Source of the DNA: Spirosoma oryzicola
Lineage (GTDB): Bacteria; Bacteroidota; Bacteroidia; Cytophagales; Spirosomataceae
Assembly (NCBI RefSeq): GCF_021233055.1
Contig: NZ_CP089538.1
Span: forward strand, 5,649,069-5,713,068
DNA length: 64,000 nucleotides
Direction of reading: 5' to 3'
Part shown: one piece after another, positions 21,032 through 30,889 of the stretch
How the letters are laid out: every line of letters starts with the position of its first letter
How positions within the stretch are numbered: the stretch's first letter is position 1
The notes under the pieces: model-generated
The model's database searches: none
Told to the model about the DNA's origin: nothing
Seen by the model: only the letters and a program-made list of their open reading frames with translations
Translations under genes and position numbers: made by a program

Positions 21032-21805
21032 ATGCGTATTTCTGTCAACGGTACTCACTTGAATGTACTGGAACAAGGAAGCGGGCCATTGACGCTCGTT
21101 TTCATGCATTATTTCGGCGGCTCGGCACTGGAATGGCAGACGGTCATGGACCAGTTAGCCAATCAATACCGTTGCATCGCCGTTGACCTACGAGGTTGCG
21201 GAGATTCTGACGCGCCAGAGACGGGCTACTCCGTCGATACAATGGCCGACGACATGGCTGACTTAATTCAGGCGTTACACATAAAAAGTTATGTGTTGAT
21301 TGGTCATTCGATGAGCGGTAAAGTAGCGCTGGCGCTCGCTGCCCGTCAGCCAGTTGGCTTACGGAAGTTAGTGTTGTCGTCACCGTCTCCCCCTGTGCCG
21401 GAGCCTATTCCAGACGATGAGCGGCAAAAATTGCTGCAAGGCTACGGACAACGTTCGTCTGCCCAACAGACGATGAAAAACATTACAGCGGCCAGCGTAT
21501 CGAAAGCTATTCAGGAGCAGATCATTGCCGACGACCTACGAACATCAAAACCGGCCTGGGATGCTTGGTTGCTGGAAGGCAGCAAGGAAGATATCTCGGA
21601 AAGAATGGCTGACGTGTCAATACCCGTTTCGATCATCGTTGGTGCCGACGACCGCGCTTTACCGCCCGACGTGCAGGACAAACTGGTGTTGCCTTACGTA
21701 AGACACGCAACCGTCGAAGTCGTTGACGGAGCGGGTCATTTACTGCCTTGGGAAGCTCCCGAGACGCTAACCACCTTTATTCAGAAAAAAATAGCGGATG
21801 TTTAG
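21032..21805 (+). CDS. Alpha/beta-hydrolase
   Basis: 257 residues. The nucleophile elbow is GHSMSG (Ser near residue 93). The oxyanion region HYFGGSALEW is near residue 27, the acid is probably Asp in IVGADDRALPP, and the catalytic His is in GAGHLLPWE. It has no signal peptide and a minimal lid, like haloperoxidase/esterase members. Last gene of the 16.4-21.8 kb run; substrate unknown. Confidence 0.85.
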   Translation: MRISVNGTHLNVLEQGSGPLTLVFMHYFGGSALEWQTVMDQLANQYRCIAVDLRGCGDSDAPETGYSVDTMADDMADLIQALHIKSYVLIGHSMSGKVALALAARQPVGLRKLVLSSPSPPVPEPIPDDERQKLLQGYGQRSSAQQTMKNITAASVSKAIQEQIIADDLRTSKPAWDAWLLEGSKEDISERMADVSIPVSIIVGADDRALPPDVQDKLVLPYVRHATVEVVDGAGHLLPWEAPETLTTFIQKKIADV

Positions 21806-21825
21806 CAACGTAAAAACAAAGGTTT

Positions 21826-21833
21826 TATATTTG
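21826..21833 (+). promoter_or_regulatory. -7 promoter element of the tRNA-Pro gene
   Basis: TATATTTG fits the Bacteroidota -7 consensus TAnnTTTG and lies 11 nt before the tRNA 5' end, correct for a tRNA promoter. Confidence 0.6.
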
Positions 21834-21844
21834 TGCTTTCTCTT

Positions 21845-21937
21845 TGGGGTGTAGCGCAGTCTGGTAGCGCGCTACGTTCGGGACGTAGAGGTCGTGGCTG
21901 GTGCGCCGGTGCGATTCGAATCCCGCCACCCCGACCA
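21845..21937 (+). tRNA. tRNA-Pro (anticodon CGG) with an unusual 16-nt expansion before the T loop
   Basis: Acceptor TGGGGTG (21845-21851) pairs with CACCCCG (21927-21933); discriminator A and an encoded CCA follow. The D stem is GCGC/GCGC, the anticodon stem CTACG/CGTAG, and the loop TTCGGGA gives anticodon CGG at 21879-21881. The T loop TTCGAAT and 3' stem strand CCCGC are normal. The 5' T-stem strand is not: after AGGTC, GTGG is interrupted by 16 extra nt made of two near-identical 8-mers, CTGGTGCG and CCGGTGCG. Total length is 93 nt rather than about 77. It could be a functional tRNA with a long variable region (then T stem GTGCG with one C:C mismatch) or a damaged gene. Confidence 0.75.
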
Positions 21938-21963
21938 CACAAGTGGTTTTGAATCGTTCGCTG

Positions 21964-21995
21964 TTGACCAACAAATAAACGACGGTGAATACAAT
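21964..21995 (+). promoter_or_regulatory. Probable promoter of the trp operon
   Basis: TTGACC (21964-21969) and TACAATTAG (from 21990) are separated by 20 nt, the spacing usual for Bacteroidota -33/-7 promoters. The expected start near 22002 places the transcript about 24 nt before the trp leader peptide. Confidence 0.5.
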
Positions 21996-22025
21996 TAGAA
22001 AGCAATGAATAACTCGGTAAATAAC

Positions 22026-22061
22026 ATGATTTGGTGGTGGCACTCTTCTCATTGGGGATGA
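22026..22061 (+). CDS. trpL: trp operon leader peptide (MIWWWHSSHWG)
   Basis: An 11-codon ORF that encodes four tryptophans, three of them consecutive (22032-22040), then stops with TGA at 22059-22061. Random 11-residue peptides almost never hold four Trp. It lies 110 nt before trpE and is followed by alternative RNA hairpins ending in a terminator. Its role is to sense charged tRNA-Trp: a ribosome stalls on the Trp codons when tryptophan is scarce. Confidence 0.85.
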   Translation: MIWWWHSSHWG

Positions 22062-22128
22062 GGGTTGCCGCTATTGTTATTTGTCAATAGATTTACAAGG
22101 CTCACCGTCATCCCGGTGGGCTTTTTTT
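22036..22128 (+). promoter_or_regulatory. Ribosome-mediated transcription attenuator of the trp operon
   Basis: Three exclusive pairings are visible. Pause hairpin 1:2 joins GTGGCA (22037-22042, overlapping the Trp codons) to TGCCGC (22066-22071). Antiterminator 2:3 joins GGGATGA (22055-22061, overlapping the leader stop) to TCATCCC (22108-22114), extended by GGT/ACC after one mismatch. Terminator 3:4 joins the strand 22097-22107 to 22114-22124 (11 bp around the loop TCATCC) followed by TTTTTTT. A ribosome stalled at the Trp codons frees segment 2 and favours antitermination; one that reaches the stop codon covers segment 2 and lets the terminator form. Confidence 0.85.
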
Positions 22129-22171
22129 ATGCCCTTGTCCAACCAAACGTGCACTCCTAACAAAATAGATT

Positions 22172-23623
22172 ATGGAAACCCTTACCGCCACTACCTACCG
22201 CGTTGTCAGCCGTCATAAACGGATGCTGGCCGACATTATCACGCCCGTTAGCATCTACCTGCGCATCCGGGACCGCTTTCTAAATAGCATCTTGCTCGAA
22301 AGCTCCGATTATCACGGCAACGATAACAGCTTTTCGTACATCGCTTTTGACCCAATTGCCCAGTTTACCTACGACCGAAATAACGGGCCGCTGGGAAAGC
22401 TAACGGTCAAAATGCCAGCCGAAGACGAGCTGGTACGTGAACTGTCGGAGCCGAAAGCGATGCTAGACGCGCTTGAGCAGTTTAAAAACAGTTTTCAGCA
22501 CGAGAAAGCACCGTTTCCGTTCATCACCAACGGCTTGTTTGGCTATTTTGGCTACCCGGCTGTGCAAAGCTTTGAAGATATTAATCTTCACGCCCCCATT
22601 CCGACTGAAAACCAGATTCCGGCAGCCGTCTTCTCTGTTTATCGCTACGTGCTGGCAATCAATCATTTTAAAGATGAGTTGTATCTGTTCGAGCACAGCT
22701 ATCTTCGTGACGGCGAGGCACAGCCAGACAGTACCCTCGATTACATCAGCGATCTGATCACGGGTCGCAACTATCCGACGTACTCCTTTAGCCCAGCCGG
22801 TCCTGAACAATCGAACTTCACCGACGATGAGTTCCGGGCGGTTATCCAGAAAGGCAAAGATCACTGCCAGCGGGGTGATGTGTTTCAGATCGTTTTGTCG
22901 CGACGCTTTTCTACACCATTCGTGGGCGACGAATTTAACGTTTACCGGTCGCTGCGATCGCTGAACCCCTCTCCCTATCTGTTCTATTTTGACTACGGCA
23001 ATTATAAGCTGTTTGGCTCCTCGCCCGAATCGCAAATCGTTGTCAAAGACCGGAAAGCTACCATCTATCCTATTGCTGGCACGTTCCGCCGTACGGGTGA
23101 CGACCTCCGCGACGCAGAATTAGCCCAGAAGCTGTACGATGATCCAAAAGAATCCGCCGAGCACGTTATGCTGGTCGATCTGGCTCGCAACGATCTTAGC
23201 CGTAACTGCGATGTTGTCAAAGTCGAAACCTTTAAAGAGGTTCAGTACTATTCGCACGTTATCCACCTTGTTTCGAAAGTTGTGGGTGATCTGACCGAAT
23301 CAGCTGATCCGCTGCAAATCGTCGCCGAAACCTTCCCCGCCGGGACCCTGTCAGGTGCGCCAAAACACATGGCAATGCAACTCATCGACCGCTATGAAAA
23401 CCTCAGCCGTAGTTTTTATTCAGGCAGCATCGGCTACATGGGTTTCGACGGTGAGTTCAATCACTGCATCATGATTCGCACGTTTATGAGCAAAGACAAT
23501 ACGCTGTATTATCAGGCCGGAGCGGGTGTTGTTGCCAAGTCGGTCGTTGAAAGCGAATTGCAGGAAGTGCATAACAAACTGGCCGCCCTGCGTATGGCCA
23601 TCGAGCAAGCTAAAACCCTGTAA
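22172..23623 (+). CDS. trpE: Anthranilate synthase component I
   Basis: 483 residues. Converts chorismate plus ammonia or glutamine to anthranilate, the first step of tryptophan synthesis. The N-terminal LLESSDYHGNDN corresponds to the LLES tryptophan feedback-inhibition site. The C-terminal chorismate-binding domain has GDVFQIVLSRRF, PIAGTFRRTG, VDLARNDLSR and FPAGTLSGAPK. It partners with TrpG, encoded 68 nt downstream. The gap holds a palindromic repeat that begins at the trpE stop codon. Confidence 0.96.
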   Translation: METLTATTYRVVSRHKRMLADIITPVSIYLRIRDRFLNSILLESSDYHGNDNSFSYIAFDPIAQFTYDRNNGPLGKLTVKMPAEDELVRELSEPKAMLDALEQFKNSFQHEKAPFPFITNGLFGYFGYPAVQSFEDINLHAPIPTENQIPAAVFSVYRYVLAINHFKDELYLFEHSYLRDGEAQPDSTLDYISDLITGRNYPTYSFSPAGPEQSNFTDDEFRAVIQKGKDHCQRGDVFQIVLSRRFSTPFVGDEFNVYRSLRSLNPSPYLFYFDYGNYKLFGSSPESQIVVKDRKATIYPIAGTFRRTGDDLRDAELAQKLYDDPKESAEHVMLVDLARNDLSRNCDVVKVETFKEVQYYSHVIHLVSKVVGDLTESADPLQIVAETFPAGTLSGAPKHMAMQLIDRYENLSRSFYSGSIGYMGFDGEFNHCIMIRTFMSKDNTLYYQAGAGVVAKSVVESELQEVHNKLAALRMAIEQAKTL

Positions 23624-23690
23624 CGCGGATACTCTATCCGCATTGACGTGTCAATATTCATTTAACCAGCGGACATCCTGTCCGCGTTAC
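23621..23690. repeat. Paired-hairpin (REP-doublet-like) element, family B copy 1
   Basis: Two small hairpins, GCGGATA-ctc-TATCCGC (23625-23641) and GCGGACA-tcc-TGTCCGC (23669-23685), lie inside a longer inverted repeat, TAACGCGGA...TCCGCGTTA. The element fills the trpE-trpG gap and shares its first three bases with the trpE stop. A diverged second copy lies between trpB and trpA. Confidence 0.75.
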
Positions 23691-23691
23691 T

Positions 23692-24258
23692 ATGAAACTT
23701 CTAGTCTTAGATAACTACGATTCATTCACCTACAACCTCGTTTATATTCTGAGGGAGTTAGGACTTCGGCCCGACGTGATCCGAAATAACAAAATAGCGC
23801 TGGACGCGGTCGATCAGTACGATAAAATTCTGCTTTCGCCGGGGCCGGGCATTCCGTCCGAGGCCGGTATTATGCAGGACCTGATCACTGAATACGGGGC
23901 TAGCAAAAGCATACTGGGCATCTGCCTGGGTCATCAGGGAATTGGTGAAGCGTACGGCTCCCGATTGGAAAATCTGGGCGATGTGCTACACGGCGTAGCT
24001 CACCGCGCAACCGTTACGGACCGCTCAGAAAAACTGTTTGCCGACATTCCCGAAGAACTGACCGTTGGCCGCTATCACTCATGGACGGTTGTACCGGATT
24101 CGATGCCTGCCGATTTGCGTGTCACCGCCGTAGATGAGCAGGGCCGCGTTATGGGACTAGCCCATACCCGTTTCGACGTACGGGGCTTACAGTTTCACCC
24201 CGAGTCAGTACTAACTGAGAATGGCGTGAAGATGATTCAGAATTGGTTATCCGCATGA
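23692..24258 (+). CDS. trpG: Anthranilate synthase component II (glutamine amidotransferase)
   Basis: 188 residues, class I amidotransferase. The catalytic Cys is in LGICLGHQGIGEAYG, and the His/Glu pair is in LQFHPESVLTENG. It supplies ammonia from glutamine to TrpE. Its TGA overlaps the start of the next gene by the four bases ATGA, which implies translational coupling. Confidence 0.95.
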   Translation: MKLLVLDNYDSFTYNLVYILRELGLRPDVIRNNKIALDAVDQYDKILLSPGPGIPSEAGIMQDLITEYGASKSILGICLGHQGIGEAYGSRLENLGDVLHGVAHRATVTDRSEKLFADIPEELTVGRYHSWTVVPDSMPADLRVTAVDEQGRVMGLAHTRFDVRGLQFHPESVLTENGVKMIQNWLSA

Positions 24259-24932
24259 AACTCGACCATGTCGTTCCCTGGGGCCGTACGCGGAGCGAGT
24301 ATGTAAACATGTTTACGCTTACGGATGCCGATTTGGCAAAGAAAATTCTCGGCATCGGAGACGGCCCTGCCAGTTTTAATGCAGAAATGACAGCCGACGG
24401 TTATTCGGTTACGTCCATCGACCCAATTTATGCGTTCTCGGCGGAACAGCTGAAAACACGCATCAGCGATACGTATGACGTTGTCATGAAGCAAATGCAA
24501 ACCAATGCGGAGCACTACAACTGGACTGCTTTCCGGGATGTTGACGAGCTAGGTCGGGAACGGATGCGCGCCATGAACCAATTTCTGTACGATTATGAAG
24601 AAGGAAAACAACAGGGCCGTTACCAAACAGGCTCCTTACCGGTGTTACCTTTCCAGAATCGTTCCTTTGGTTTAGCGCTTTGTTCGCATTTGCTTTTTCT
24701 GTATTCGGATCAGTTGTCCGAGTCATTTCATCTGGCAGCGATACAGGAACTAATTCGGGTAGCCGACGAGGTTCGCATTTTTCCGCTGGTGTCGTTGAAT
24801 GGTCAGTTGTCGCCTTATCTGGATCGAGTGTTGGTCTACTGTAAGGCTGCTGGCATCCGGTCCGAAATAGAAAGCGTTAATTACCACTTTCAGAAAGGAG
24901 CTTTTCAAGTATTGCGCCTTACGTCTAATTAG
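24255..24932 (+). CDS. SAM-dependent methyltransferase-like protein inside the trp operon
   Basis: 225 residues from the ATG at 24255 that overlaps the trpG stop; an upstream TTG frame is not needed. Near the N-terminus, LGIGDGPASFNAEM followed by VTSIDPIYAF resembles motif I and the acidic loop of Rossmann methyltransferases. The later LPFQNRSFGLALCSHLLFLYS resembles motif IV. The central ERMRAMNQFLYDYEEGKQ is unusual. The gene has no known part in tryptophan synthesis, yet it lies between trpG and trpD (6-nt gap) and should be co-regulated with them. Substrate and function unknown. Confidence 0.7.
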   Translation: MKLDHVVPWGRTRSEYVNMFTLTDADLAKKILGIGDGPASFNAEMTADGYSVTSIDPIYAFSAEQLKTRISDTYDVVMKQMQTNAEHYNWTAFRDVDELGRERMRAMNQFLYDYEEGKQQGRYQTGSLPVLPFQNRSFGLALCSHLLFLYSDQLSESFHLAAIQELIRVADEVRIFPLVSLNGQLSPYLDRVLVYCKAAGIRSEIESVNYHFQKGAFQVLRLTSN

Positions 24933-24938
24933 TGTATA

Positions 24939-25925
24939 ATGAAAGACATTCTTAATCACCTGTTTGAACACAAATTTCTCACCAAAGATCAGGCTCGGCA
25001 GGTATTGCTGGGCATCGGGCGAGGAGAATACAACGCAGCTCAGATTGCTTCCTTCCTGACGGTTTACATGATGCGAAGCATCCGTTTGGAAGAACTGGAA
25101 GGCTTCCGGGATGCGATGCTTGAGCTTTGTCTGCCGGTTGACCTGGACGCTTACGACCCAATGGATCTTTGCGGTACGGGGGGCGACGGAAAGGATACGT
25201 TTAACATATCAACGTTGTCGTCTTTTGTTGTGGCTGGAGCCGGGCAGTGCGTTGCCAAGCATGGTAACCACGGTGTATCATCGCTCGTTGGCTCTTCGAC
25301 AGTTATGGAACGACTCGGATACCGGTTTACAAACGATGTTGGGGAGTTACAGCGGAAAATGGAAACCGCCGGAATCTGCTTTTTACATGCGCCCCTGTTC
25401 CACCCGGCAATGAAGAATGTAGCCCCCATCCGGAAGGACTTGGGCGTGAAGACATTTTTCAATGTCCTGGGTCCAATGATTAATCCGGCAAAGCCTCAAA
25501 AACAGCTCGTTGGCGTATTCAACCTTGAATTGGCGCGATTATATGCGTACCTTTATCAGCAAAGCGACAAACGATTTATGATCCTTCACGCGCTGGATGG
25601 TTACGACGAGATTTCGTTGACCGGTGCGTTTAAGGTTATCAGCAATCAAACGGAGCAGGTTCTTGAGCCTGAGCAGCTAGGAATGAGTCTATTAACGGCT
25701 GAATCGCTAGCAGGAGGGCAAACACTCGATGAGTCGGCTCAGATTTTTATGAACGTGCTGAACAACGAAGCAACATCCGCTCAGAAACAGGCCGTTCTGG
25801 CCAATTCGGCAATGGCGCTGCTAGCGGCTGGACGAGCCACTAGTCGGGAAGAGGCTGTAGCTTTAGCCCGCGAATCGTTGGAAAGCAAAAAGGCATTGGC
25901 GTGTTTTAAGAAATTGATCAATTAG
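24939..25925 (+). CDS. trpD: Anthranilate phosphoribosyltransferase
   Basis: 328 residues. Transfers phosphoribose from PRPP to anthranilate. The PRPP site is DLCGTGGDGKDTFNIST, followed by KHGNHGVSS and the anthranilate-binding HAPLFHPAMKNVAPIRKDLG. Full length. The next gene, trpC, starts 105 nt later. Confidence 0.95.
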   Translation: MKDILNHLFEHKFLTKDQARQVLLGIGRGEYNAAQIASFLTVYMMRSIRLEELEGFRDAMLELCLPVDLDAYDPMDLCGTGGDGKDTFNISTLSSFVVAGAGQCVAKHGNHGVSSLVGSSTVMERLGYRFTNDVGELQRKMETAGICFLHAPLFHPAMKNVAPIRKDLGVKTFFNVLGPMINPAKPQKQLVGVFNLELARLYAYLYQQSDKRFMILHALDGYDEISLTGAFKVISNQTEQVLEPEQLGMSLLTAESLAGGQTLDESAQIFMNVLNNEATSAQKQAVLANSAMALLAAGRATSREEAVALARESLESKKALACFKKLIN

Positions 25926-26030
25926 AAAAAGTCATTCGTAGTCATCGCTGTTCTGCATTGGTTTAAACAAAGACCGAGTATATCAGACAAAGCATGACAC
26001 GGCGTAAATGACAACGACGACGCACAGCAG

Positions 26031-26843
26031 ATGACGATTCTTGACGAAATCATTGCACAAAAGCGAATTGAAGTAGAGCAGCGCAAAGCGGCCACGCCAA
26101 TATCTGCACTGGAACAAATGCCGGATTTCAAACGGCAGCCTTTATCCGCGCGGGAAGCCATTCAAGGATTAAATTCGACGGGTATTATTGCTGAATTCAA
26201 GCGCAAATCCCCGTCAAAAGGTATTATTAATGACCGTGCCGATGTAGCAGCAACCACGCAGGGATATGTGCAGGCTGGAGCCGCTGTGCTGTCGGTGCTG
26301 ACCGACGAACCTTTTTTTGGCGGAACTCCCGCCGACTTGCAAGCCGCTCGGTTGGCTAACCCATCTACGCCGATCCTTCGTAAAGATTTCGTTATCGATC
26401 TGTACCAGCTGATTGAGGCCAAAGCCTGGGGAGCCGATCTGGTCCTGCTGATTGCGTCCTGCCTGACTTCCGCAGAAGTTGCCGAGCTGAGCCAGGAAGC
26501 ACAGAACCTTGGCCTGCAAGTCCTTCTTGAGGTTCATGACGAAGACGAGTTGGATCAAACACTTACGCACACTGTTGATCTGGTAGGCGTCAATAATCGT
26601 AATCTCAAAACCTTTACGACATCCATCGACACGTCATTACGCCTTGTTGAGCGCATTCCCGACACGTTTGCGAAGATAACGGAAAGTGGTCTGCACGACG
26701 CCGAAACGATGCACACGTTGTTTCGAGCGGGTTTCGATGGCTTCCTGATTGGCGAAGCTTTCATGAAAACCGCCGATCCAGCCGCAGCCTTACGTTCTAT
26801 AGTAACCGACTTTACTTCACGTATACCCACCTTTGCAAACTAA
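26031..26843 (+). CDS. trpC: Indole-3-glycerol-phosphate synthase
   Basis: 270 residues, TIM barrel. The signature EFKRKSPSKG holds the substrate-binding lysine; the catalytic Lys is probably in PILRKDFVID, and LVGVNNRNLKTF and ITESGL are also conserved. It closes the indole ring from CdRP. It is a single-function protein, with trpF encoded separately 8 nt downstream. Confidence 0.95.
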   Translation: MTILDEIIAQKRIEVEQRKAATPISALEQMPDFKRQPLSAREAIQGLNSTGIIAEFKRKSPSKGIINDRADVAATTQGYVQAGAAVLSVLTDEPFFGGTPADLQAARLANPSTPILRKDFVIDLYQLIEAKAWGADLVLLIASCLTSAEVAELSQEAQNLGLQVLLEVHDEDELDQTLTHTVDLVGVNNRNLKTFTTSIDTSLRLVERIPDTFAKITESGLHDAETMHTLFRAGFDGFLIGEAFMKTADPAAALRSIVTDFTSRIPTFAN

Positions 26844-26851
26844 TTTACGTC

Positions 26852-27496
26852 ATGAAAATTAAAGTGTGCGGTCTGAGAGACGCTGAGAACCTGAAAGAGA
26901 TTGCCGCCCTTGGTCCTGACTTTGTCGGATTTATTTTCTACGATCAATCACCCCGGTTTGTAGGCGATGAACTAAGCGAGGAAGTAGTAAAAGCACTGCC
27001 ACGGTCTATTCGGAAAGTAGGTGTGTTTGTCAACGCCAGTCCCGATTTTATTCTGCGTACTGTCAAGAAGTACGATTTTCAATACGTTCAGCTTCATGGC
27101 AACGAAACACCGGAATACTGCCGGAGCCTGCGCAACCGGGGAATAAGCCTGATCAAAGCCTTTCGGGTTGACAACTCGTTCAATTTCTCGATGCTTAACA
27201 ATTACAAAGCACACTGCGATTTCTTTCTGTTCGACGCTAAAGGTGATCAACCGGGTGGTAACGGCATCACCTTCGACTGGAGCATTCTGAGCCGCTACGA
27301 CAACGAAAAGCCTTTCTTTATCAGCGGAGGCATTGGTCTTGATAACCTCGATCAGCTGTCAGCTTTGAAAGGAATGAAGTTGTATGGCGTCGATGTCAAC
27401 AGCCAGGTGGAGATTGCGCCCGGTGTCAAAGACGTGGCAAAAGTCAAAGAGCTGATCAATCGGCTGCGCCCCATCGAAGAAGAAGAGACGGTATAA
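26852..27496 (+). CDS. trpF: Phosphoribosylanthranilate isomerase
   Basis: 214 residues, TIM barrel. The catalytic general base is Cys in KVCGLRD (C6), and the general acid Asp is in FLFDAKGD. The phosphate site is FISGGIGLDN...GVDVNSQVE, where the common DVNSGVE reads DVNSQVE, one substitution at a usually conserved glycine. Full length. Confidence 0.93.
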   Translation: MKIKVCGLRDAENLKEIAALGPDFVGFIFYDQSPRFVGDELSEEVVKALPRSIRKVGVFVNASPDFILRTVKKYDFQYVQLHGNETPEYCRSLRNRGISLIKAFRVDNSFNFSMLNNYKAHCDFFLFDAKGDQPGGNGITFDWSILSRYDNEKPFFISGGIGLDNLDQLSALKGMKLYGVDVNSQVEIAPGVKDVAKVKELINRLRPIEEEETV

Positions 27497-27721
27497 ACAC
27501 AGATTGATTACCCAACTATACTGACACACGCATCCGCCAACGTCCTACCTGCTGAACACTTATTTTTTGTGCTGGCCCCTTAATTCCAGGGGGCGGGGTA
27601 ACCTATTAATTCTTTTTTCTGTTCTCGCTTAAAAAGTAGCAATGGTTGACTGATTCCTGAAGATACTTGCCGACTCGGCGTCCATCTTCGTCTTTGTTCA
27701 TACCGGTTAATTACTCACTTT

Positions 27722-28921
27722 ATGCAAACCACGCTTGAACCAACTACCTCTTTTGAGGTATCCGATAAAGGCTTTTACGGTCATTTTGGTGGCGCATTCA
27801 TCCCTGAAATGCTTTACCCAAATGTCGAAGAGCTGCGGCAGAACTATCTTCAGATCATTGCCGACCCTGCTTTTCAGGCCGAATTCTGGCAGTTGCTCGA
27901 AGATTATGTCGGGCGTCCAACTCCGCTCTTCTTAGCCAAACGGCTATCCGAGAAACTAGGCGCGACCATTTACCTCAAGCGGGAAGATCTTTGCCACACG
28001 GGAGCGCACAAGGTGAATAATACCATTGGGCAAATTCTGGTGGCGCAGCGGCTTGGTAAAAAGCGTATCGTCGCCGAAACCGGGGCAGGTCAGCATGGGG
28101 TTGCAACCGCTACTGTTTGCGCGCTGATGGGTCTGGAATGTATCGTCTACATGGGCAGCATCGACATGGAGCGGCAAAAGCCCAACGTTGATCGGATGCG
28201 GATGCTGGGTGCTACCGTCATACCGGCCAGATCAGGCAGCCAGACCTTAAAAGACGCCACCAACGAAGCCATGCGCCACTGGATCAATAATCCGGTAGAT
28301 ACCCATTACATCATCGGTTCCGTTGTTGGCCCGCACCCATACCCGGATATGGTCGCGCGGTTTCAATCGGTTATCTCGCAGGAGGTCAAGAAACAATTGC
28401 TGGCGAAAACTGGCACCCAAAACCCAGATTACGTAGTAGCCTGCGTGGGTGGCGGTAGCAATGCAGCCGGTGCCTTCTTCCATTATCTGAACGAACCATC
28501 GGTTCGGTTGGTCGCAGCCGAAGCCGCTGGCCAGGGCGTTAGCTCGGGGCATTCAGCCGCAACGACAGCACTTGGCAAACCGGGGGTCTTACACGGAAGC
28601 CGGACCATTCTGATGCAAACAGAAGACGGCCAGGTCGTTGAGCCTTATTCGATTTCAGCGGGATTGGATTATCCGGGAATTGGCCCTCTTCACGCTCATT
28701 TGTTTGATTCAGGACGCGGTGATTTTTACGCCATCACGGACGACGAAGCTTTACAGGCCGGTTTTCAACTCAGTAAACTTGAAGGCATTATTCCCGCGCT
28801 GGAATCGGCTCATGCGCTGGCCGCTCTCGAAAAAATGAACCTCAAGTCCGACGATGTCGTCGTCGTTTGTCTGTCGGGGAGAGGTGATAAAGACCTAGCA
28901 ACCTACTCAAAACATTTATAG
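27722..28921 (+). CDS. trpB: Tryptophan synthase beta chain
   Basis: 399 residues. Condenses indole and serine. The PLP lysine is in [11 protein letters not shown], the phosphate loop is [12 protein letters not shown], and the ammonium/COMM-like region is AETGAGQHG. It belongs to the standard TrpB1 class that pairs with TrpA. The 225-nt gap from trpF holds a GC-rich hairpin near 27575-27594 but no ORF. Confidence 0.96.
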
Positions 28922-28925
28922 CCCA

Positions 28926-28997
28926 TAGCGCGAACAGCTTGTCCGCCTGGTTGTCAGATCAACTAGTATTTAACTACGGGCAAACTGTTCGCGTTAC
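28926..28997. repeat. Paired-hairpin element, family B copy 2
   Basis: It aligns end to end with the element at 23621-23690, including the termini (TAGCGCG... and ...TTCGCGTTAC) and the internal ATTTAAC. GCGAACAG (28930-28937) and CTGTTCGC (28985-28992) form the outer inverted repeat. A further fragment TCCGCGTTACGG lies at 29037-29048, just before the trpA start. The hairpins are less perfect than in copy 1, so this copy looks older. Confidence 0.7.
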
Positions 28998-29049
28998 GGC
29001 ACTACGCTATAAATCACTCCAACTACTGCTATTCCATCCGCGTTACGGT

Positions 29050-29841
29050 ATGATACAGGAATTAACCCAGAACCGCATCACCGACTTGTTCGCGCACAAA
29101 AGCGAACGGCTGTTAAACGTTTATTTTACCGCTGGCTTTCCGGAGCTGACCGATACGCGAACCATTCTGCGCGGTCTGGAGGCTGCTGGTGTCGATTTGG
29201 TTGAGATCGGTATGCCTTATTCCGATCCCGTTGCCGATGGCGAAACGATTCAGCAGAGTAACGGCAAAGCCCTGGACAACGGCATGTCCATTAAAGCGCT
29301 ATTCGACCAGTTGGCCGGCTGCCGCAGTGAAATCACGGTTCCTATTTTGCTGATGGGTTATGTTAATCCCATTTTGCAGTTCGGCGTAGCTAATTTTTGC
29401 AAAAAGTGCCAAGAAGTAGGCGTAGACGGAGTCATTCTCCCGGATTTGCCTCTCGATTTGTATCTGGCCGAATACGCTTCTGTTTTCCGGGAATACGGGA
29501 TTCTAAACGTCCATTTGATCACTCCGCAGACTTCGGAAAGCCGGATTCGGTACATCGACGAAGAATCGGACGGATTTATTTACATGGTTTCATCGGCCAG
29601 CATAACCGGCTCGGTTCAGGGTATTAGTGATCCGATGCGCGCTTATTTTGAGCGTATTCAATCTATGAACCTTCGCAATCCGCGTCTGATTGGATTTGGC
29701 ATCAACAACCACGAAACGTTCGATACGGCCAGTCAATACGCCAATGGAGCCATTGTTGGTAGCGCGTTTATCCGGCATCTGCAAGAAAAAGGAACCTCCG
29801 CCGAGAGCATTCAAGCGTTTGTGCAGACGATTCGCGCTTAG
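29050..29841 (+). CDS. trpA: Tryptophan synthase alpha chain
   Basis: 263 residues from the ATG at 29050. A longer frame from a TTG at 28939 only reads through the repeat element and is rejected. Catalytic Glu and Asp are in VDLVEIGMPYSDPVADG. The phosphate site uses IGFGINN and GAIVGSAF. It cleaves indole-3-glycerol phosphate and channels indole to TrpB. Confidence 0.95.
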   Translation: MIQELTQNRITDLFAHKSERLLNVYFTAGFPELTDTRTILRGLEAAGVDLVEIGMPYSDPVADGETIQQSNGKALDNGMSIKALFDQLAGCRSEITVPILLMGYVNPILQFGVANFCKKCQEVGVDGVILPDLPLDLYLAEYASVFREYGILNVHLITPQTSESRIRYIDEESDGFIYMVSSASITGSVQGISDPMRAYFERIQSMNLRNPRLIGFGINNHETFDTASQYANGAIVGSAFIRHLQEKGTSAESIQAFVQTIRA

Positions 29842-29846
29842 CGGCT

Positions 29847-29854
29847 TACCTTTG
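29847..29854 (+). promoter_or_regulatory. Possible -7 promoter element just before hisIE
   Basis: TACCTTTG matches TAnnTTTG and ends 4 nt before the hisIE ATG at 29859. If active it would start a leaderless or near-leaderless message. There is no clear -33 element inside the trpA 3' end, so it may be chance. Confidence 0.3.
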
Positions 29855-29858
29855 TAGC

Positions 29859-30467
29859 ATGAATGCTGAGATAAACTTTGACAAATCGCCCGACGGTCTA
29901 ATCCCTGCCGTCATTCAGGATGCCGAAACCGGTAAAGTACTGATGTTGGGCTACATGAATCGTGAAGCCTACGACAAAACGGTTACTGAACAGGTTGTGA
30001 CTTTTTTTAGTCGGAGCAAGCAGCGGCTGTGGACGAAGGGCGAAACCTCCAATAACTTTCTGCACGTTCGCGAAATGCTGGTTGATTGCGATGGTGACAC
30101 GTTGCTCATCAAGGCCAATCCAGCCGGGCCAGTCTGCCACACAGGTGCCGACACTTGCTTTGAGGAAGTCAATCAAGGCAAAGGACAGTTTCTGAACTAC
30201 CTCCAAGGCATTATTCACGACCGAAAAATTAATCCTTCCGAAAAATCATACACGACAACGCTGTTTAATCGGGGAGTTAACAAGATTGCGCAGAAAGTAG
30301 GTGAGGAGGCCGTCGAATTGGTTATTGAAGCGAAAGACGATAACGACGATCTTTTCAAAGGCGAAGCGGCTGATCTTCTCTTCCATTTTCTGGTTCTGCT
30401 CGAACAGAAAAACATGAGTTTGGACGACATCGTGGCCGTTTTACAGTCTCGTCATCAAAAACAATAG
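29859..30467 (+). CDS. hisIE: Bifunctional phosphoribosyl-AMP cyclohydrolase / phosphoribosyl-ATP pyrophosphatase
   Basis: 202 residues with two fused domains. The N-terminal HisI part has WTKGETSNNFLHV, DCDGDTLL and the metal-binding CHTGADTCFEE. The C-terminal HisE part has EKSYTTTLFNRG and KVGEEAVELVIEAKD. It catalyses steps 2 and 3 of histidine synthesis. It starts 17 nt after trpA and so may be the last gene of the trp transcript, an unexpected place for a his gene. The HisI-HisE fusion itself is common. Confidence 0.94.
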   Translation: MNAEINFDKSPDGLIPAVIQDAETGKVLMLGYMNREAYDKTVTEQVVTFFSRSKQRLWTKGETSNNFLHVREMLVDCDGDTLLIKANPAGPVCHTGADTCFEEVNQGKGQFLNYLQGIIHDRKINPSEKSYTTTLFNRGVNKIAQKVGEEAVELVIEAKDDNDDLFKGEAADLLFHFLVLLEQKNMSLDDIVAVLQSRHQKQ

Positions 30468-30553
30468 ATTCGGGTTTGCGGTTTGCTTTTCGACGTGTTC
30501 GGTCATTGTTGTAATGCCTGAGTGACGTTGCTCACCAAACACAAACTCTATTT

Positions 30554-30889
30554 ATGGGACTGATTATTCGTATTCTTATTAGCGCAGTAGCAGTTTACGT
30601 TGCTAGCTTGTTTATTCCAGGGATTTCTGTAACGGGAGGAGCCGGAACGTACTTGGTTATTGCCATTGTCCTGGGCTTGTTGAACGCCTTCGTTAAACCG
30701 ATCCTGACAGTGTTGACAATCCCTATTACGATTCTGACGCTGGGGCTCTTTTTGATCGTCATTAACGTCCTGATGGTTTACCTGGCTTCTTCTCTAGTCA
30801 GCGGTTTTCACGTCTCCGGCTTTATTGCGGCTTTCTTGTTCAGTATTGTCGTATCGTTAGTAACGTCTTTGCTGGACGCCATCGTTTAG
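30554..30889 (+). CDS. Small four-helix membrane protein (phage-holin-family/YvlD-like)
   Basis: 111 residues, nearly all hydrophobic, with four predicted transmembrane segments and the conserved LGLLNAFVKPILTVLTIPITILTLGL split by a short loop. This is the widespread chromosomal family annotated as phage holin family or DUF360-like. It has no lysis module beside it, so it should not be read as a sign of a prophage. Function unknown. Confidence 0.8.
   Translation: MGLIIRILISAVAVYVASLFIPGISVTGGAGTYLVIAIVLGLLNAFVKPILTVLTIPITILTLGLFLIVINVLMVYLASSLVSGFHVSGFIAAFLFSIVVSLVTSLLDAIV

Follow-up and report, generated by a model that had tools for sequence, protein, structure and literature searches.

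A trp operon attenuator in Spirosoma oryzicola, very likely part of the 3' trailer of a tRNA-Pro(CGG) unit

The trp operon of Escherichia coli is controlled by ribosome-mediated attenuation and also by TrpR, and there is no tRNA gene in its unit. Transcription of tRNA and protein genes together from a tRNA promoter is known from the E. coli thrU-tyrU-glyT-thrT-tufB unit, which the arrangement proposed here resembles in joining tRNA and protein genes in one unit; we know of no ribosome-sensing conditional terminator between the tRNA and the protein gene in that case. Bacteroidetes are said to have been mentioned by Vitreschak in 2004, and to our knowledge no upstream tRNA belongs to the Bacteroid-trp family of Rfam (RF01692). 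Trp leader attenuation is already described for Bacteroidota. The Bacteroid-trp family is listed in Table 1 of PMC2864571, it is discussed in a passage of PMC6414381 as an E. coli-like trp leader in Flavobacterium psychrophilum, and a passage of PMC9723704 notes that, in the same species, amino-acid operons are preceded by leader-peptide attenuation. Little other literature on trp attenuation in Bacteroidetes was found. In a different phylum, trpL (rnTrpL) of Sinorhizobium meliloti, which differs in sequence, is described as attenuating without repression of transcription and as having a leader RNA that starts at the ATG, and the part of this account used here places no tRNA gene in the unit (PMC7298713). 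In the open-licence literature, no paper was found on a trp attenuator linked to a tRNA gene or on the Spirosoma case.

The locus described here lies in a 64,000-nt stretch of the Spirosoma oryzicola genome, which was analysed as a whole and is called the window. It appears to be a variant of the known Bacteroidota switch, and what seems to be new is the position of the trp attenuator behind tRNA-Pro(CGG). Like Bacteroid-trp, it is a Bacteroidota Trp leader that precedes trp genes; the RF01692 model differs in that it ends at the 5' arm of the terminator. In the 261 nt of the window searched, RF01692 scored 26.3 bits (E = 0.51), below its cut-off of 49, and at the gathering score it matched none of 35 distinct loci, mostly from Cytophagales and including that of the window. 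Its matches were in 13 of 20 chosen loci of the class, all 13 in a single family (f20, taken for Flavobacteriaceae) and with WWW leaders. With the enterobacterial Trp_leader (RF00513) the locus shares a leader peptide with Trp codons and the 1:2, 2:3 and 3:4 stems, and this model gave a full-length match of 30.9 bits (E = 1.1e-4 for 261 nt), below the cut-off of 41.

The genes downstream of the attenuator are as follows.
22172 to 23623, forward strand: trpE (best NCBIfam match TIGR00564 trpE_most, E = 2.1e-122; 409.4 bits, below the cut-off of 517.7)
23692 to 30467, forward strand: trpG, an ORF between trpG and trpD, trpD, trpC, trpF, trpB, trpA and hisIE (from the ORF list and NCBIfam)

The original prediction placed the attenuator before a trp operon, and the gene order agrees with this: trpE, the first gene, stands directly downstream and opens a trpE-trpG-ORF-trpD-trpC-trpF-trpB-trpA-hisIE operon that ends at 30467. 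Among the matches listed, the best relatives of TrpE were mostly Spirosoma proteins with 84-91% identity. The ORF between trpG and trpD (24243-24932, read from 24258) had no NCBIfam match; by eye it resembles a methyltransferase, as a candidate only. The trpA ORF as listed (28939-29841) begins at TTG, but its family match covers it only from residue 51 onward, so the actual start probably lies further downstream. A histidine gene, hisIE (29859-30467), follows close behind trpA and ends the trp operon.

Attenuation and repression coexist in E. coli, and the operon might be mainly under another factor, such as a repressor, a TRAP-like protein or a T-box, with the leader persisting as a relic. 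However, the whole genome contained no match to TrpR (PF01371), for which the E. coli and B. subtilis controls were positive, or to TRAP (PF02081), for which the B. subtilis control was positive, and neither a T-box nor any other Rfam leader was found in the window at the gathering cut-off. The strong conservation reported below also speaks against a relic, and we consider control mainly by another factor very unlikely.

The leader itself comprises the following elements.
22005 to 22061, forward strand: trp leader ORF trpL, MNNSVNNMIWWWHSSHWG followed by a stop codon (translated from the sequence, with the start chosen from relatives)
22032 to 22040, forward strand: sensor of three Trp codons in a row, TGGTGGTGG, invariant in the 42-row alignment A2
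22053 to 22055, forward strand: fourth Trp codon, not conserved in the leaders of relatives

Direct reading of 22026-22061 gives ATG ATT TGG TGG TGG CAC TCT TCT CAT TGG GGA TGA, with Trp codons at 22032-22040 and 22053-22055 and the stop codon at 22059-22061. The 11-codon ORF originally described is thus correct in its coordinates, its stop and its four Trp codons, but an in-frame ATG at 22005, which gives an 18-aa leader ORF, had been missed. The codon equivalent to ATG 22026 varies: of the 36 unique Spirosoma-type loci, 5 have AAC instead, but all 36 keep an ATG or GTG 7-10 codons ahead of the first Trp codon. Therefore, the leader ORF probably starts at 22005, and ATG 22026 would be an internal Met. 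As in other ribosome-mediated trp attenuators, a short ORF with clustered Trp codons stands ahead of the trp biosynthesis genes. Leaders with at least four Trp residues are rare, at 6/36 Spirosoma-type loci (one of which, L011, is counted through a Trp in its longer upstream reading) and 1/16 loci of the Fibrella/Rudanella/Larkinella/Arsenicibacter type, so that, judged from the relatives, the fourth Trp codon is outside the conserved leader design. On these counts we rejected a special role for this codon, and the distinct outcome once suggested for a stall there has no evolutionary support.

Three alternative stems were predicted in the leader RNA.
22032 to 22073, forward strand: 1:2 (pause) hairpin in the fold, pairing 22032-22041 with 22064-22073, 22043-22045 with 22060-22062 and 22047-22050 with 22055-22058
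22055 to 22114, forward strand: antiterminator (2:3) in the folds, pairing 22055-22061 with 22108-22114, 22063-22065 with 22104-22106 and 22067-22069 with 22099-22101
22097 to 22128, forward strand: intrinsic terminator (3:4), pairing 22097-22107 with 22114-22124, plus a T tract

The terminator has an 11-bp stem that includes two G-U pairs, with T at 22122-22128, and lies between the leader ORF and the first gene of the operon. It has the most pairs among the 10 terminator-like sites in 21400-30600, a number that is not above shuffles (mean 11.0). The full leader (22026-22128) folds as the 1:2 hairpin plus the terminator with an MFE of -38.2 kcal/mol (z = -3.9; 0/200 shuffles as good). The antiterminator forms once the 3' arm of the terminator is withheld (-28.3, z = -2.0, 10/200 shuffles as good) and likewise once the 5' part of the leader is removed (-27.1, z = -3.7, 0/200 shuffles as good). 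Its replacement of the terminator fold in both truncations is the switch expected of ribosome-mediated attenuation, and the mutually exclusive geometry that had been proposed, with an antiterminator at 22055-22065/22104-22114 and the terminator and T tract where they had been placed, is borne out. From sequence and geometry, a ribosome that has reached the stop codon would mask the 5' arm of the antiterminator, and one stalled at the Trp codons would leave it exposed. The pause hairpin was only partly right: a 1:2 hairpin is present, but its 6-bp register gives way to the longer one given above, which shows some compensatory changes. As the main register, the 6-bp version was rejected, with zero compensatory changes and no measure above shuffles.

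DNA upstream of trpE was collected from relatives and from the order, class and phylum. A WW-containing short ORF followed by a terminator-like hairpin precedes trpE in 192 of 236 loci (180 of the 192 unique), and the remaining 44 lacked leader plus terminator in the same survey; this sample is rich in close relatives, and some loci may come from the same genome. Within 500 nt, a WW ORF occurs on the coding strand in 87 of 125 loci, compared with 3 on the opposite strand, in a set comprising the class and phylum surveys plus four relatives from the order. The leader was also found in 26/35 loci added later from the order and 25/40 added later from the family, among which a few hits (e.g. L277, L304, L329 and L339) look accidental. 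It extends to Bacteroidota classes outside Bacteroidia, where TrpE is only about 40% identical.

The terminator stays paired in every cell (100%) of the alignment of 42 Spirosoma/Fibrella/Rudanella-type sequences, and 3 of its pairs have changed in both strands together (10 cells); for the 24 Dyadobacter-type sequences the figures are 99.3% of cells paired and 4 pairs with such double changes. The antiterminator of the former group is paired in 96.9% of cells, with 2 compensatory cells of 545, and its further pair types, one of five measures, are not above shuffles (127/500 reach the value). Covariation of the antiterminator is weak in this group because the element hardly varies there. In the Dyadobacter-type sequences it is paired in 89.9% of cells and shows 7 compensatory cells; pairs with change (68/500) and further pair types (500/500) are not above shuffles. 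The long register of the 1:2 hairpin is paired in 93.2% of cells, and one pair changes from C-G to U-A in 11/42 sequences; the same two of five measures, pairs with change and further pair types, do not exceed shuffles. No counts were taken from the mixed-genus alignment A1, in which the antiterminator was, by eye, misaligned.

We also performed an alignment-free test, in which the stretch after the Trp run was paired with the 5' arm and loop of the terminator, and partners from mismatched loci and shuffled sequences served as controls. Sequence-identical loci were removed before the duplex, near-leaderless and tRNA or motif counts, and loci more than 90% alike were removed before the duplex and arm-spacing tests. 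For 93 dereplicated loci (11 odd or poor leader calls, loci above L193 and segments longer than 150 nt left out), the mean antiterminator duplex was -16.25 kcal/mol, versus -10.97 for mismatched loci and -10.45 for shuffled sequences; individually, 37/93 duplexes ranked within the top 5% against mismatched partners, and 60/93 did so against shuffles. The 28 loci of other classes (those above L193, with segments longer than 170 nt left out) gave a mean of -16.04 versus -11.34 and -10.85, respectively; here 13/28 duplexes reached the top 5% against mismatched partners and 18/28 against shuffles. The 5' arm of the antiterminator begins a median of 18 nt past the Trp run, and in 85/93 loci it begins within 13-24 nt, compared with 28% in shuffles. 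In E. coli attenuation, an arm at such a spacing is free when the ribosome stalls at Trp and covered by a ribosome at the stop codon. The proposal of leader-peptide attenuation of the trp operon is therefore supported by the conserved WW leader with its terminator, by covariation in the terminator and by the arm spacing, and the alignment upstream of trpE that the original prediction had recommended did recover conserved Trp codons and stems. Judged from the sequence, it is close to certain that the attenuator is real.

The earlier reading had not included a tRNA-Pro gene, the apparent source of the promoter, and it has to be amended in this respect, because the following elements precede the leader.
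21826 to 21833, forward strand: TAnnTTTG match TATATTTG (Bacteroidota -7 promoter element), with transcription predicted to start at about 21838
21844 to 21936, forward strand: tRNA-Pro(CGG) gene called by ARAGORN, 93 nt, enlarged in the T-arm region; putative first element of the trp unit

A passage of PMC9723704 places TAnnTTTG in the primary promoters of Bacteroidota, at -12 to -5 relative to the start site, and the same consensus appears in a passage of PMC7366714. The match at 21826-21833 is the sole exact one within 21701-22200. A tRNA-Pro(CGG) gene lies directly ahead of the leader in most loci of Spirosoma, Fibrisoma, Fibrella, Fibrivirga and Larkinella; two Rudanella-like loci (L051 and L054) share the order, as do three from other genera of the family (L280-L282), which may overlap with other loci in the set. 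Members of the Dyadobacter type in this family do not carry this tRNA ahead of the leader. Among 52 unique loci (36 of the Spirosoma type and 16 of the Fibrella/Rudanella/Larkinella/Arsenicibacter type), 42 had a tRNA-Pro call, 36 of canonical size and 6, including that of the window, enlarged to 91-95 nt; degenerate second copies were seen by eye elsewhere. TAnnTTTG begins 13-19 nt ahead of the tRNA in all 42, and it is kept in all 10 loci without a tRNA call, at 89-140 nt ahead of the first Trp codon. In loci without a call, remnants of the tRNA could be recognized by eye after the motif (L003, L008, L009, L012, L013, L037, L044 and L052), and no trace of a former tRNA was seen by eye in L108 of Arsenicibacter.

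An alternative is that a real attenuator is served by a separate promoter, located between the tRNA and trpL or within them, which would make tRNA-Pro a mere neighbour. The 68 nt between the end of the tRNA and ATG 22005 in the window leave room for part of a promoter, the gap is longer in some relatives, several of which have apparent degenerate tRNA copies, and the promoter could conceivably be of a different type and lie within the tRNA or behind it. TAnnTTTG can also occur by chance: from shuffles, 19.1 of 179 unique loci (one of the 180 being short of upstream sequence) are expected to have the motif in the 250 nt ahead of the leader, against the 142 loci that do. However, the tRNA ends only 12-24 nt from the leader ATG in many loci (e.g. 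L006, L022, L051, L054, L056 and L059-L062), which leaves little room for a second promoter, and TAnnTTTG is absent between the tRNA and the leader in 40/42 loci; in the other two it falls, by eye, within a second and degenerate copy of the tRNA. Together with the motif in all loci without a tRNA call, this makes a separate promoter unlikely. Another alternative holds that the hairpin is just the constitutive terminator of the tRNA-Pro unit, as would be expected downstream of any tRNA gene, and that the Trp-rich ORF is untranslated or not regulatory. We regard this as extremely improbable, given that terminator and WW leader occur together in many Bacteroidota loci with no upstream tRNA call and that antiterminator complementarity and the fixed spacing from the Trp run exceed the controls. 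Since TAnnTTTG precedes the tRNA in 42/42 loci and persists in 10/10 without a call, the attenuator probably doubles as a conditional terminator of the tRNA unit, and co-transcription of tRNA and trp is likely. Taken together, a ribosome-mediated trp attenuator very likely sits in the 3' trailer of the tRNA-Pro(CGG) transcription unit.

The tRNA-Pro(CGG) gene of the window has about 17 extra nt in its T-arm region and an Rfam tRNA score of 40.1 bits, compared with 64-67 bits for the 75-nt copies of relatives, and is probably decaying. When 11 genomes of the genus were searched with an intact tRNA as query, the tRNA was at the trp locus in 4, and the copy of G022 was degenerate (91% identical, with no ARAGORN call). 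In 5/11 genomes (G003, G011, G012, G013 and G023) tRNA-Pro(CGG) was not found, and only Pro tRNAs with TGG and/or GGG were present, with the qualification that G011 is 80% complete and that a very divergent copy would be missed. The tRNA thus seems dispensable while the motif stays ahead of trp; read most simply, the trp operon depends on the promoter of the tRNA.

Outside the clade with the tRNA, TAnnTTTG lies within 60 nt of the leader in 87/127 unique loci, versus 6.24 from shuffles, and the predicted start falls 0-6 nt before the leader ATG in 41/127, versus 1.48 from shuffles; leader starts were set at the leftmost in-frame ATG, and some may be misplaced. These positions suggest that the leader messages in this group are leaderless or nearly so, comparable to the ATG-starting leader RNA of S. 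meliloti. Leaderless mRNAs are uncommon in these bacteria, making up 5.5% of the mapped mRNAs of F. psychrophilum (PMC9723704).

Other stable RNA genes were found near trp leaders. Between the leader terminator and trpE, there is one tRNA-Trp(CCA) gene in G393 and G404 (genus g228; L286 and L287) and there are two in tandem in G417 (genus g229, L302), and each of these genomes has one other tRNA-Trp whose sequence differs from the operon-borne copies. These tRNA-Trp counts come from a relaxed search pattern. As read here, the leader of L302 contains a single Trp codon, and three further g229 loci (L304, L305 and L310) have no tRNA-Trp between leader and trpE. In one locus of the Cytophagales family f14 (L029), a tRNA-Met(CAT) ends 27 nt before the ATG of the trp leader and may have become linked to it independently; in 10 other loci of this family, no tRNA call was made in the 500 nt ahead of trpE (a shorter stretch in two of them). 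In 13/35 distinct loci searched (L051, L052, L054, L059, L060, L063-L065, L068, L070, L071, L084 and L097), trpE is preceded by a 5S rRNA at a distance of a few hundred nt. The contigs concerned are from Larkinella, Dyadobacter and Rudanella-like genomes, that of L059 also has a 23S end, and trp seems to follow an rRNA operon in them. We rejected rRNA promoters as drivers of trp, as a terminator hairpin and TAnnTTTG follow the 5S in the sequences inspected by eye.

In the mechanism that we propose, RNA polymerase would start near 21838 at the tRNA promoter and transcribe tRNA-Pro, trpL and the terminator. When charged tRNA-Trp is ample, the ribosome would reach the stop codon of trpL and mask 22055-22065, the terminator would form, and the transcript would end at about 22128, giving the tRNA plus leader RNA. 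When charged tRNA-Trp is scarce, the ribosome would stall on 22032-22040, 22055-22065 would pair with 22104-22114, and with the antiterminator formed transcription would continue into trpEG...BA-hisIE. We infer translation of the leader, the response to Trp and processing of the tRNA from the shared transcript. The wider reading, which we favour with reasonable though limited confidence, is that in Spirosoma and related genera trp has no promoter of its own and is fed by conditional read-through of tRNA-Pro(CGG), with the attenuator acting as the terminator of the tRNA unit, and that trp holds the captured promoter while the tRNA decays or is lost. In this reading, trp attenuators of Cytophagales can keep tRNA genes on either side, so that in three genomes the tRNA under control of the switch would be of the same kind as the one it senses.

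Attenuation needs a ribosome close behind RNA polymerase, and the leader occurs in several classes; the locus and its relatives therefore support coupling of ribosome and polymerase in Bacteroidota, a phylum whose messages are without Shine-Dalgarno sequences. If the proposal is true, Trp synthesis would be coupled to the transcription of stable RNA through a tRNA promoter that drives an amino-acid operon, and a single start site would supply a tRNA as well as an amino-acid pathway. Loci that have naturally lost the tRNA but kept TAnnTTTG would form a series for a promoter passing from gene to gene, and the tRNA-Trp inside the regulated unit of some relatives suggests a closed loop.
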